NCBI RefSeq assembly: GCF_012932565.1
Contig: NZ_JABBYJ010000001.1
Location: forward strand, 1,054,001-1,118,000
Length of the DNA stretch: 64,000 nucleotides
DNA from: Sneathiella limimaris
GTDB taxonomy: Bacteria; Pseudomonadota; Alphaproteobacteria; Sneathiellales; Sneathiellaceae
Reading direction: 5' to 3'
Shown here: positions 5,952 to 59,032 of the stretch, in pieces
Numbering within the stretch: the first letter of the stretch is position 1
How the letters are laid out: every line of letters begins with the position of its first letter
Position numbers and translations under genes: made by a program
Notes under the pieces: model-generated
Told to the model about the DNA's origin: nothing
What the model saw: only the letters and a program-made list of their open reading frames with translations
Databases searched by the model: none

Positions 5952-6515
5952 ATGGAAGTTCTCAAATCCATGACAAATTTGCAGCGGTTCTTTTTGGTAA
6001 CCGGGATTGTTGCAATGACTGTTGTTGTGACGTCCTCCAACATTTTGGTGGAAATTCCGATTAATGATTGGCTGACATGGGGTGCGCTGAGCTATCCTTT
6101 CGCCTTTCTGGTCACAGACCTAACCAACAGGGCGCTAGGGCCATCCAGGGCTCGCATTGTTGTTTATGTGGGATTTGTTGCGGCAGTTGCCATGTCTCTG
6201 ATCTTGGCGGATAGCCGGATCGCACTGGCTTCAGGCTCTGCGTTTCTCCTATCACACTTGCTGGATATCTTTATGTTCGACCGGTTGCGCAAAGCGACCT
6301 GGTGGAAAGCTCCGGTATTTTCATCCGTAATCGCTTCATTCCTCGATACACTGCTGTTCTTCACGCTGGCCTTCGCCGGCACAGGCCTGCCATGGCAAAC
6401 ATGGGCACTCGGAGACTATGGAATCAAGCTGGCAATGGTTGTTGTACTGATTTTGCCATTCCGCGGAATGATGAAATACACAGACCCATTGACATTAGCA
6501 GGTACTGCTAGATAG
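5952..6515 (+). CDS. Queuosine precursor transporter (YhhQ/VUT family)
   Basis: A 187-residue integral membrane protein with about six hydrophobic segments. Diagnostic pieces are F-L-V-T-D-L-T-N-R (family L-x-x-D-x-x-N/Y signature), S-H-L-L-D-I-F-M-F-D-R-L-R and the following W-W-K-A-P. YhhQ-family proteins import queuosine precursors (preQ0/preQ1) across the inner membrane for tRNA modification; substrate is inferred. The reading frame is open from a TTG at 5919, but ATG 5952 with a TAAGGTG ribosome site eight bases upstream is the better start. I did not recognise a preQ1 riboswitch in the 100 bases upstream. Confidence 0.85.
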   Translation: MEVLKSMTNLQRFFLVTGIVAMTVVVTSSNILVEIPINDWLTWGALSYPFAFLVTDLTNRALGPSRARIVVYVGFVAAVAMSLILADSRIALASGSAFLLSHLLDIFMFDRLRKATWWKAPVFSSVIASFLDTLLFFTLAFAGTGLPWQTWALGDYGIKLAMVVVLILPFRGMMKYTDPLTLAGTAR

Positions 6516-6521
6516 AATTTT

Positions 6522-6607
6522 CCAAAAAAAAGGGCCGAGTAAAAACCCGGCCCCAAGTAAGGGAGGAAACGCTCTCTCTCGAGAGCAGTCAGTGTGTGTG
6601 TGCTGAC
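6522..6607 (-). ncRNA. Candidate trans-acting small RNA with anti-Shine-Dalgarno loop
   Basis: Read on the minus strand, this interval is a compact small-RNA gene. A GUCAG/CUGAC hairpin (6588-6607) is followed by a perfect GCUCUC-gaga-GAGAGC hairpin (6571-6586), an unpaired pyrimidine-rich stretch GUUUCCUCCCUUACUU (6555-6570) complementary to ribosome-binding sites, and an intrinsic terminator (GGGCCGGGU-UUUU-ACUCGGCCC plus eight U, 6524-6553). The terminator stem closes with a G-U pair on the minus strand but has an A-C mismatch on the plus strand, so the minus reading is favoured. A promoter-like pair lies just upstream. Exposed UCCUCC loops are known from alphaproteobacterial sRNAs such as the CcsR type; homology to those is not shown. 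The 5' end is approximate. Confidence 0.55.
6524..6553 (-). terminator. Rho-independent terminator of the sRNA candidate
   Basis: Nine-base-pair GC-rich stem (arms 6532-6540 and 6545-6553) with a UUUU loop, followed on the minus strand by eight U (A-run 6524-6531). On the plus strand the stem has a mismatch and no T-tract follows, so it would serve the upstream transporter gene poorly. Confidence 0.75.
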
Positions 6608-6612
6608 AACCC

Positions 6613-6649
6613 ATATATTGCACCTGCGAAAACAAATCGCAAGTGCAAT
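6613..6649 (-). promoter_or_regulatory. Promoter-like element within an inverted repeat, upstream of the sRNA candidate
   Basis: On the minus strand CTTGCG (6638-6643) and CAATATAT (6613-6620) are separated by 17 bases, resembling a promoter (loosely heat-shock sigma-like, CTTG...TAT). Both elements fall on an inverted repeat with 12-base arms (6617-6628 and 6638-6649, one mismatch, outer arms ATTGCAC/GTGCAAT) around a 9-base spacer. A bound repressor or activator at the repeat could control the downstream sRNA. Function is inferred from position only. Confidence 0.45.
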
Positions 6650-6653
6650 TTCC

Positions 6654-6944
6654 CTTTTTTCTTCAGAAAATTGCATTTTTTTTGAGCTTGCACTTTGTTT
6701 GTGCACGTTGATTAATTTATGTGCGAAAAATGACCGAAAATAGGGCGTTTCCGTTAGGGTTTTCTTAAGTTTTTGAGTAGCTCAGTCGAATCTAGTGCTA
6801 CTCATTTCACCAAAATTTCCGGCTGAAAAATGTTTGCTGTCCACATTTATTTTGTAATACTTCAATTTCTAATGCTGCATCGCAACAAATGAATGTGGGG
6901 CGAATTCGATTATTTTGAATCCTACTTTGACTTTTAAAAAGGAC
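6654..6944. other. Gene-free AT-rich interval with paired repeats
   Basis: No supportable protein gene is present. Further TTGCAT/TTGCAC/GTGCAC motifs occur at 6671, 6688 and 6701. A hairpin with 8-base arms TGAGTAGC/GCTACTCA lies at 6774-6804. A longer inverted repeat pairs 6841-6852 with 6887-6898 (12 bases, one G-T wobble). A near-palindrome TGCTGC-ATC-GCAACA lies at 6873-6887. These could be a second structured RNA, or leader/operator DNA for the sRNA candidate. Confidence 0.4.
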
Positions 6945-6971
6945 AAAAAAATGAGTCGGAAAACCGACTCA
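6945..6971 (-). terminator. Rho-independent terminator of nudC
   Basis: Perfect 8-base-pair stem TGAGTCGG/CCGACTCA (6952-6959 and 6964-6971) with an AAAA loop; on the minus strand it is followed by seven T (6945-6951). It lies 30 bases beyond the nudC stop. Confidence 0.88.
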
Positions 6972-7000
6972 CTTAAAAGAATCACTGTTTAAGATTCGGG

Positions 7001-7921
7001 TTATTCTTCGACCCAAGCCTTGGCAAGTTGGTGGGCTATTGCCATCGGAGGGGACATTCTTGGTGTTTCTGTTGTGCCAGAGCGGGCCAGCATCAAGCGG
7101 ACATCCTCCTTGCTGAACCACTGCGCATCGGCAAGCTCCACCTCGTCCAAGGTGATTTCTTCTGTCAGGGCCTCTGCAAAACAGCCAATCATCAGCGAGG
7201 AAGGGTAAGGCCAGGGCTGGGAAGAGTGATAGCGCACATCTCCACATTTAACGCCAGTTTCCTCGAACACTTCGCGCCGAACACCCTGTTCGATTGTCTC
7301 TCCTGGCTCAACAAAGCCTGCCAGAGCTGAATATTGTTGCTTGGGGAAATGATGGCCAGTCCCCAGGAGACAATAATCCCCCCGGGTCACCATCATGATG
7401 ACGACAGGATCTGTTCTTGGAAAATGAGACGCGTTGCAGGCTTCATCTACACATTTGCGAGAATAGCCCAGTTCGTTGACAGCTGTTTTACAGCCACAGA
7501 CGGAGCAGAACTGATGGTTTTCGTGCCAGGCCAGCATGGATCGCGCTTGAGCCAGGGCGCCGGCTTCACCAGGTCTGAGCTGGGATGAGACAGATCGAAC
7601 ATCAATGAATTTACCCCAATCGGAGTTCGGAACTGCTTTTGGGTTTTCAATCGCTGATACATCAACAGCAAAATGTGCAGCAAAATCGGCAATACCAAGG
7701 AACACAAGTGTAGCGCCCTGATCGATAAATTCCTGTACATCTGCGAGCCCCCGCCAGTCAATGCAGGGATCGCCAGCCAGTTCAATAAGGGCTTTCAAGC
7801 GATGCATGGGAAGGAATCGAGTGGAAGGATCTGCCATCTTTTGTTCCAGCCAAACAGGATCATTACGAAACTGCGCAGCGCGATCAAAACGGTTTCCGGT
7901 AAATACGAGGGGTTTGGTCAT
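7001..7921 (-). CDS. nudC: NAD(+) diphosphatase / NADH pyrophosphatase, RNA decapping Nudix hydrolase
   Basis: A Nudix hydrolase of about 306 residues that cleaves NAD(H) to NMN(H) and AMP and, in characterised homologues, removes NAD caps from RNA. A zinc-ribbon precedes the catalytic domain (C-S-V-C-G...C-V-D-E-A-C). The Nudix box G-F-V-E-P-G-E-T-I-E...R-R-E-V-F-E-E-T-G is complete, and S-Q-P-W-P-Y-P-S-S-L-M downstream is the motif that separates NudC from other Nudix enzymes. The open frame extends to 7972, but ATG 7921 (M-T-K-P-L-V-F) with AGAGAAG upstream is the better start. It is followed by a strong terminator. Confidence 0.93.
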   Translation of the reverse strand: MTKPLVFTGNRFDRAAQFRNDPVWLEQKMADPSTRFLPMHRLKALIELAGDPCIDWRGLADVQEFIDQGATLVFLGIADFAAHFAVDVSAIENPKAVPNSDWGKFIDVRSVSSQLRPGEAGALAQARSMLAWHENHQFCSVCGCKTAVNELGYSRKCVDEACNASHFPRTDPVVIMMVTRGDYCLLGTGHHFPKQQYSALAGFVEPGETIEQGVRREVFEETGVKCGDVRYHSSQPWPYPSSLMIGCFAEALTEEITLDEVELADAQWFSKEDVRLMLARSGTTETPRMSPPMAIAHQLAKAWVEE

Positions 7922-8017
7922 GGTTGATCTTCTCTGGCGAGGCTTATTTTCAGTCTTTATTGAGGCGTACAATATCTACAAAAGCAGAACGGATGCAAAT
8001 TTTTCCCAAAAAGGGGT

Positions 8018-8052: not shown

Positions 8053-8147
8053 GGAAGGCTGGCGTGGGCGTGCCCCTCGCGAACCCGGTCAGGTCCGGAA
8101 GGAAGCAGCCGTAACGAGTTTCGGTGCGGGTCATTGCCAGTCTTCTT
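8053..8147 (+). ncRNA. ffs: Signal recognition particle RNA (4.5S type)
   Basis: Contains the near-invariant SRP domain IV core GGTCAGGTCCGGAAGGAAGC (8087-8106), continuing AGCCG...ACGAG. Terminal arms AAGGCTGGC (8055-8063) and GCCAGTCTT (8136-8144) pair to close a single long hairpin of about 95 nucleotides, followed by a T-rich tract. This RNA binds Ffh and targets nascent membrane proteins. Exact ends are estimated from the pairing. The location just before dnaX is common in alphaproteobacteria. Confidence 0.95.
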
Positions 8148-57241: not shown

Positions 57242-59032
57242 ATGCCGATTTATAATGCTCCTGTAAAGGATATCAAATTTGTCCTCAATGACCTCTTGGG
57301 TCTGGACAAAATGACAAACCTTCCAGGTTTTGAAGACGCAACGCCGGACATGGTGGACGCCATTCTGACCGAGGGCGCCAAAATGATGGAAGAGGTTATT
57401 CAACCTCTCAATCAGGTTGGTGACAAAGAAGGATGTACCTGGAACGATGGCGAGGTGACGACCCCATCTGGCTTTAAGGAAGCTTTTGACGCCTACCGCG
57501 AAGCGGGCTGGATGGGGATTGATGCCGATCCTGAGTATGGCGGACAAGGCTTGCCGCATGTGGTTGGAATTGCGCTGGCCGAAATGATGTCTTCTGCCAA
57601 CATGGCCTTTGGTATGTATCCCGGCCTCACCCATGGTGCGTATGCAGCTATCCATAAGCATGGAACGGACGAGCAGAAGCAGACTTGGTTGCCAAAGATG
57701 GTAACGGGCGAATGGACTGGGACAATGAACCTGACCGAGCCACATTGTGGAACGGATCTGGGTTTGATGCGGACTAAAGCTGTCCCGCAGGAAGATGGAA
57801 GCTATAAAATCACGGGCACGAAGATTTTCATCTCTGCTGGTGAGCATGACATGGCTGACAACATCGTTCATCTGGTTCTGGCGAAAATTCCTGGCGGCCC
57901 TGAAGGCATCAAGGGTGTATCTCTTTTCATCGTGCCGAAGTTTGTGCTGGATGAGAACGAAAACCCAGGAGAGCGCAACGGTGTTACTTGTGGTTCCATA
58001 GAGCACAAGATGGGCATTCATGGTAACTCTACCTGCGTAATGAACTATGAGGATGCAACAGGCTATCTTCTTGGTGACGCTCACAAAGGTATGCGCGCAA
58101 TGTTCACCATGATGAACGCAGCTCGTCTCGGTGTGGGAATTCAAGGTCTTTCACAGGCTGTTGTTGCTTATCAGAACGCCGTTGAATATTCCAAGGATCG
58201 CTTGCAGGGCCGTTCCATTTCTGGTGTGAAAGCACCAGAGAAGGCTGCGGATCCAATTATTGTGCATCCGGATATTCGTCGAAACCTTTTGATGTGCCGC
58301 GCATTTACTGAAGGTGCACGTGCGCTTGGTTTATGGGCTGGTTTGCAGGTTGATATGGTCGACAAGCATCCTGATGCTGATGTTCGTCGGGATGCGGACG
58401 ATGCGCTTGGTCTGCTGACGCCTGTGATCAAGGCTTACTTTACGGATATGGGTTTTGAGCTTTCTGCGACAGCCATGCAGTGTTATGGCGGTCACGGCTA
58501 TATCCATGAATGGGGTATGGAACAGTTTGTTCGAGATGCTCGGATCACCCAGATTTATGAAGGTGCCAATGGTATTCAGGCATTGGACCTGGTGGGTCGG
58601 AAACTGCCTGCAAATATGGGTCGTTCTTTGCGGCAATTCTTCCATCCTGTCGACGCATTCATCCAGGAAAACATGATGAATGCTGAACTGCAGGAGTTTG
58701 TCATGCCATTGGCGAAATCTTTTGCCAAACTCCAACAGGGTACAGCCTTGCTCGGTGAGAAAGGCATGAAAAATCCAGATGAGGCGGGTGCCGCTTCATC
58801 AGAATATCTTCGGATGTTTGGTCTTGTTGCGCTTGGCTTCATGTGGGCGAAGATGGCCAAAATTGCGAAAGAGAAACTGGCAGAGGGTGCGGAAGATAAG
58901 CAGTTTTATGAAACCAAACTGGTTACAGCCCGCTTCTTCTTCGAGAGGATGATACCAGATGTGTCCTCCTTGTTGGTGAAGATGTCTGCTGGATCACAAA
59001 CAATGATGGAATTGGAAGCAGAAGCTTTCTAA
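57242..59032 (+). CDS. Acyl-CoA dehydrogenase with C-terminal extension (FadE5-like)
   Basis: A 596-residue acyl-CoA dehydrogenase of the long, C-terminally extended type. The N-terminal/middle domains show Y-G-G-Q-G-L-P, W-T-G-T-M-N-L-T-E-P-H-C-G-T-D-L (FAD contacts) and the helical domain ends with I-Y-E-G-A-N-G-I-Q-A-L-D, in which the Glu is at the MCAD-like catalytic position. About 140 further residues follow. It catalyses the first oxidation of beta-oxidation and is 12 bases after the FadN-like gene. A long antisense open frame on the minus strand here is a shadow. Confidence 0.92.
   Translation: MPIYNAPVKDIKFVLNDLLGLDKMTNLPGFEDATPDMVDAILTEGAKMMEEVIQPLNQVGDKEGCTWNDGEVTTPSGFKEAFDAYREAGWMGIDADPEYGGQGLPHVVGIALAEMMSSANMAFGMYPGLTHGAYAAIHKHGTDEQKQTWLPKMVTGEWTGTMNLTEPHCGTDLGLMRTKAVPQEDGSYKITGTKIFISAGEHDMADNIVHLVLAKIPGGPEGIKGVSLFIVPKFVLDENENPGERNGVTCGSIEHKMGIHGNSTCVMNYEDATGYLLGDAHKGMRAMFTMMNAARLGVGIQGLSQAVVAYQNAVEYSKDRLQGRSISGVKAPEKAADPIIVHPDIRRNLLMCRAFTEGARALGLWAGLQVDMVDKHPDADVRRDADDALGLLTPVIKAYFTDMGFELSATAMQCYGGHGYIHEWGMEQFVRDARITQIYEGANGIQALDLVGRKLPANMGRSLRQFFHPVDAFIQENMMNAELQEFVMPLAKSFAKLQQGTALLGEKGMKNPDEAGAASSEYLRMFGLVALGFMWAKMAKIAKEKLAEGAEDKQFYETKLVTARFFFERMIPDVSSLLVKMSAGSQTMMELEAEAF

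Follow-up and report, generated by a model that had tools for sequence, protein, structure and literature searches.

Small RNAs (sRNAs) of the αR8 group are recognized by a 10-nt single-stranded UUUCCUCCCU that lies 3' of a weak hairpin and is followed by a terminator (PMC12559287). Through this αR8 seed, the Caulobacter sRNA SisA represses mRNAs at the 5' UTR, as tested with point and compensatory mutations, and the Sis RNAs are in turn counteracted by the sponge CrfA (PMC12559287). In Sinorhizobium meliloti, MmgR restrains phasins and polyhydroxybutyrate (PHB) storage (PMC8401924), and the mmgR promoter, activated by NtrC and repressed by AniA/PhaR, contains a dyad within its -35/-10 region (PMC8401924; PMC7143759). 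PhaR binds CAATTGTGCACCGCAGCATTA at this promoter (PMC12542648); the PhaR consensus has been given as TGCRNYGCASMA (PMC6201568).

Within the 64-kb stretch of DNA analyzed here (the window), we find an sRNA gene that is real, but a member of the already known alphaproteobacterial MmgR/αR8 family. What is new lies in its details: a 5' hairpin, the locus and, above all, a genus-specific dyad at the predicted promoter.

Structure and family assignment

The gene and its parts are as follows.

6524..6607, minus strand: αR8-family sRNA gene (MmgR/αR8), predicted transcript of ~84 nt; RF00519 match and conservation in nine species
6588..6607, minus strand: 5' hairpin GUCAG-(CA)n-CUGAC, 5' of the Rfam-matched span; stem invariant, loop a CA repeat of 6-12 nt across species
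6571..6586, minus strand: second hairpin GCUCUC-GAGA-GAGAGC; compensatory changes in relatives
6560..6569, minus strand: UUUCCUCCCU seed, the αR8 10-mer with anti-Shine-Dalgarno signature (sequence; alignment; PMC12559287)
6524..6553, minus strand: Rho-independent terminator GGGCCGGGU-UUUU-ACUCGGCCC with a 9-bp stem, a UUUU loop and eight U; fold and terminator scan, three pairs changed on both sides

From 6607 to 6524, the minus-strand sequence is GUCAGCACACACACACUGAC U GCUCUCGAGAGAGAGC G UUUCCUCCCU UACUUG GGGCCGGGU UUUU ACUCGGCCC UUUUUUUU, with CACACACACA as the loop of the 5' hairpin (GUCAG-CACACACACA-CUGAC), GUUUCCUCCCUUACUU as the unpaired stretch between the second hairpin and the terminator, and the eight U at 6531-6524. 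All of the parts that the preliminary description had placed on this strand (two hairpins, an open pyrimidine stretch and a terminator with eight U) are present within 6607-6524. The minus-strand fold has an energy of -37.5 kcal/mol (z = -5.8), which none of 200 dinucleotide shuffles reached. A stable fold is also obtained for the plus strand (z = -4.5), so that the strand cannot be told from the energy alone; we assign the sRNA to the minus strand, as had been proposed, because of its terminator, its Rfam match and homology, and its predicted promoter. One terminator-stem pair is G-U on the minus strand and A-C on the plus strand, where the stem is also not followed by a T run, and the terminator scan detected the terminator on the minus strand only, in agreement with the preliminary description. 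The seed core is largely, not fully, open in the predicted fold, and in folds reaching past the U run, two or three core bases pair with GG(A) 3' of the terminator.

The preliminary description knew of no sRNA here, a statement now superseded, as the element is Rfam RF00519 (suhB = MmgR, αr8; full name 'Makes More Granules Regulator RNA (mmgR)'). The match covers the full 77-position model at 6593-6517 on the minus strand with 46.9 bits (E 1.6e-6 for the 64-kb window), exceeding the gathering score of 41 only modestly, and it is the sole match in the whole genome at E <= 0.001. At 6569-6560, directly after the hairpin at 6586-6571, the window's 10-mer is letter-for-letter the αR8 UUUCCUCCCU; the exact 10-mer TTTCCTCCCT has ten sites genome-wide, with an sRNA-like context at the sRNA locus only. 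The αR8 features of a score above gathering, an unpaired 10-mer after a hairpin and a 3' Rho-independent terminator (6553-6524) are therefore found together. The linkage to an N-formylglutamate amidohydrolase gene seen in most species was not found: the genome has five such genes, with no αR8-like sequence, and hence no second αR8 copy, in flanks of ~1.5 kb. This linkage is not obligatory, since Caulobacter SisB-D also lie elsewhere.

Other assignments were considered for the same region. The αr14 model (RF02344) gave no match at E <= 1 in 6400-6800, and matches to mir-367, SorY and SorX were below their gathering scores. A minus-strand ORF at 6416-6706 is not coding, as its frame is disrupted by loops whose lengths differ by one and two bases among species. 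The Rfam scan of the whole window gave three matches, namely a tRNA, an SRP RNA and RF00519; the bacterial small SRP RNA lies at 8056-8146, upstream of dnaX, in an ordinary arrangement.

Locus and conservation in the genus

The sRNA gene lies between two protein-coding genes.

5952..6515, plus strand: queuosine precursor transporter gene (Vut_1, TIGR00697), convergent neighbour; start codon assumed
7001..7972, minus strand: NADH pyrophosphatase gene (NudC-type NUDIX), same-strand neighbour upstream of the sRNA gene
6949..6974, minus strand: terminator-like hairpin after nudC, separating nudC from the sRNA gene (terminator scan)

The preliminary description had the sRNA transcribed against the transporter gene. 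The two genes are indeed convergent, but because the RNA ends ~9 bases short of the stop codon, it opposes only the 3' UTR of the transporter. At the end of the transporter gene, the plus strand carries a strong promoter-like TTGACA-18-TAGAAT (11/12) at 6489-6518; if used, it would produce a transcript that is the complement of the sRNA and possibly its sponge. This site is probably due to chance, with its -35 in Leu-Thr codons of the transporter, its -10 at the stop codon and different sequences there in relatives.

Matches to RF00519 (E <= 0.001) occur in 22 of 24 congeneric genomes besides the window's own, and in nine species, including the window's, the sRNA gene directly follows the queuosine-precursor-transporter gene on the opposite strand. 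Across these nine species, 19/19 stem pairs are kept in 9/9 species (100% of 171 stem cells paired), both partners have changed in five of the stem pairs, a number attained by 5 of 500 shuffles (expectation 2.2), and the covariation score of 0.276, as opposed to 0.129 in shuffles, is reached by 0/500; RNAalifold, unaided, gives the same structure. The covariation test named in the preliminary description thus came out in favour of a conserved RNA. For the 5' hairpin, covariation offers neither support nor refutation because its stem never varies. Among 24 aligned members of the class, CUCC of the seed is invariant and most other seed positions are at least 90% conserved, and the αR8 seed is also conserved in copies at unrelated loci.

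The transporter is present without the sRNA in 11 congeners, which form one clade (100/100) in the transporter-protein tree. Their monophyly suggests a single split of the locus in the history of the genus. A stray TTTCCTCCC at the transporter locus of one of them (L050) is perhaps a remnant of the sRNA. Genome G058, from another family, has RF00519 three times in tandem within ~600 bp (L003:1329-1847), with a PhaR-type site upstream of each copy.

Predicted promoter and dyad

The only unusual part of the element is a long, near-perfect inverted repeat that covers the predicted promoter and has so far been seen in a single genus.

6618..6648, minus strand: 31-bp dyad TTGCACTTGCGA-N7-TCGCAGGTGCAA over the predicted -35/-10; near-invariant in nine species, with diverging flanks
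6615..6620, minus strand: predicted -10 CAATAT, with 7 nt between it and the predicted start (6607); CAATAT and its spacing kept in nine species
6642-6637, minus strand: predicted -35 TTGCGA, with a 16-nt spacer to CAATAT

Upstream of the sRNA, the nine species have almost nothing in common except the dyad TTGCACTTGCGA-N7-TCGCARGTGCAA, the first T of which is lost in one species. The dyad is followed by TAT and then by GTCAG, and the distance from CAATAT to GTCAG is 7-8 nt. Judging from the spacing, CAATAT and TTGCGA are the predicted -10 and -35 of the sRNA gene, so that the dyad would span both elements; it is probably an operator bound by a regulator that controls sRNA transcription. With a 16-base core pattern, no second site was found in the genome at up to two mismatches. 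At three mismatches, the full pattern has one further genomic site. It overlaps one open frame at its start and lies shortly before a second one, which encodes an ABC-type ATPase with two nucleotide-binding domains. Sampled over the class, 3 of 385 genomes carry the dyad, and all three belong to the same genus. An NtrC-like palindrome, TGCAC-TTTGTTT-GTGCA (TGCAC-N7-GTGCA), lies at ~6690-6706 upstream of the sRNA promoter; it is not conserved in the alignment of relatives and was therefore not used for the promoter reading.

Of the 32 other CCUCCC-containing copies that were retrieved (αR8 and αR8-like), 21 have a PhaR-type YGCRNYGCR upstream of the core, as compared with 7% of control windows; of the transporter-linked copies, 0/9 have one. 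This contrast is a pattern and not a functional test, given the simple control and the relatedness of the copies. In place of the TGC-N3-GC palindrome of PhaR/AniA sites, the dyad has TGC-N4-GCG. The genome does encode PhaR, at G000:C1:919858-920040, and its phaP and phaR promoter regions carry normal N3 PhaR sites. We reject the dyad as a plain PhaR site, as its N4 spacing differs from the N3 at phaP, phaR and the multi-CCUCCC sRNA promoters of this genome, although it may be a relaxed one. It is conceivable, and we put this forward only tentatively, that in one clade of the genus the αR8 sRNA exchanged the usual PhaR-type operator for the 31-bp operator of another regulator with essentially one genomic target, so that an old anti-Shine-Dalgarno sRNA would answer a new signal, while separate sRNAs with multiple CCUCCC, encoded on another contig, would retain the PhaR link.

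That other contig of the genome carries, at L123:1090-1545 (G000:C3, ~147,435-147,890), a tandem pair of longer sRNA-like units. Both have CCUCCC in hairpin loops or linkers and PhaR-type sites upstream (TTGCAACGCAA, TTGCAATGCAGCA); with scores below gathering, the first is similar to αr14 (28.7 bits) and the second to αr8 (28.4 bits). Similar units are found in many congeners (L082, L086, L087, L091, L092, L094, L099).

Mode of action and comparison with known systems

Taken as a whole, the locus is very probably the gene of a trans-acting αR8 (MmgR/SisA) sRNA whose seed would pair with ribosome-binding sites and whose dyad would be the site of a regulator. Transcription would begin near 6607 and end in the U run at 6531-6524, giving an RNA of ~84 nt, at a level probably set by the regulator on the dyad covering -35 to -10. 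This RNA would display a mostly unpaired UUUCCUCCCU between two hairpins and a terminator, and the 10-mer, probably with Hfq, would pair with purine-rich ribosome-binding sites of several mRNAs. Such pairing would lower translation, with targets most likely in carbon storage and nutrient metabolism, as in relatives. The mode of action is most likely SisA-like because this is the published mechanism of the family with the same seed; by this analogy, the blocking of ribosome sites by the pyrimidine stretch, as already suggested in the preliminary description, is the best reading.

The comparison with CcsR-type sRNAs drawn in that description was not borne out. A stress-induced sRNA cut out of the 3' UTR of the mRNA upstream, in this case that of nudC, would agree with the CCUCCC-type motif and with a position downstream of nudC on the same strand. 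However, CcsR1-4 are processed from the 3' UTR of the ccaF1 mRNA (PMC8625941), whereas the upstream gene here is nudC, which has its own terminator-like hairpin and lies nearly 400 bp from the sRNA gene, so that a 3' UTR origin of the ccaF1 type is not found; moreover, the element is a single unit that matches RF00519, and we consider this origin very unlikely. We also regard it as improbable that the RNA mainly acts as a cis-antisense RNA on the 3' UTR of the convergent queuosine-precursor transporter and so controls this gene. The genes converge to within ~9 bp of the stop codon and occur together in nine species, and since the plus strand has no terminator-like site up to 7100 in the terminator scan, a readthrough RNA of the transporter would be fully complementary to the sRNA. 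Yet the coding sequence is not overlapped, the 11 congeners keep the transporter without the sRNA, and the seed is kept in copies away from this locus. A stem-loop with a U run between convergent genes could, finally, be a mere transcription terminator without an RNA of its own, to which we give almost no credence, as the conserved 10-mer, second hairpin and upstream dyad are nothing that a terminator needs.

One variant of the αR8 reading concerns the dyad itself, for which we see a small chance that it is not a DNA operator but, within a longer αR8 RNA, a 5'-terminal hairpin of 12 bp. The arms vary at a single position, where A or G faces U, and both would pair in RNA. Nevertheless, the region 5' of the dyad shows no conserved promoter, CAATAT is conserved with a fixed spacing to GTCAG, which fits a -10, and the middle seven bases vary freely, as between half-sites.

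For the trans-acting αR8 sRNA, the genome provides hfq, phaR and phasin genes, and we surveyed 53 initiation regions of the window against internal coding windows and shuffled cores. The core pairs slightly better with initiation regions than with internal coding windows (median -10.7 vs -8.3 kcal/mol), and hardly better than shuffled cores do (average -10.6 vs -9.9, sd 0.4). This survey over 53 window ORFs is weak. The main phasin gene of the genome pairs poorly with the core (-5.8 kcal/mol), so that the phenotype known from MmgR may not apply here. Better pairing (-13.7, AGGGAG before the start) is seen for a second phasin-like gene, itself a weak match. In an acyl-CoA-dehydrogenase-like gene at 57242 on the plus strand, the start is preceded by CUAAGGGAG, the complement of CUCCCUUA in the sRNA; its -19.1 kcal/mol is the best of the 53 window ORFs and, as the best of 53, not significant.

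Of the described systems, MmgR of Sinorhizobium meliloti shares with the window sRNA a full-length covariance-model match, the UUUCCUCCCU core, the preceding hairpin, the terminator, a single recognized copy and a dyad at the -35/-10 region. In contrast to MmgR, as far as the Rfam model goes, the window sRNA has an extra conserved 5' hairpin with a CA-repeat loop; it also sits between the queuosine-precursor transporter and nudC genes, and its dyad is not the same as CAATTGTGCACCGCAGCATTA, the PhaR site published for mmgR. SisA-D, the αR8 siblings of Caulobacter crescentus, have the same 10-mer seed, which in Caulobacter acts on 5' UTRs and is, with Hfq, sponged by CrfA, but the window genome has one recognized copy instead of four, and this copy is not beside an N-formylglutamate amidohydrolase gene. 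CcsR1-4 of Rhodobacter sphaeroides share the CCUCC-rich motif and the anti-Shine-Dalgarno idea, although they are processed from the ccaF1 3' UTR, whereas the window sRNA gene stands alone and has a predicted promoter of its own. The αr14 (NfeR1-type) sRNAs likewise have anti-Shine-Dalgarno motifs, placed there in hairpin loops and in the window sRNA in one unpaired linker. As an sRNA, the window element is otherwise ordinary; it adds a further lineage to the map of αR8 sRNAs and offers a clean comparison between the same seed and a different promoter logic. If the regulator of the dyad is found, the rewiring of conserved anti-Shine-Dalgarno sRNAs to new signals could be addressed directly.
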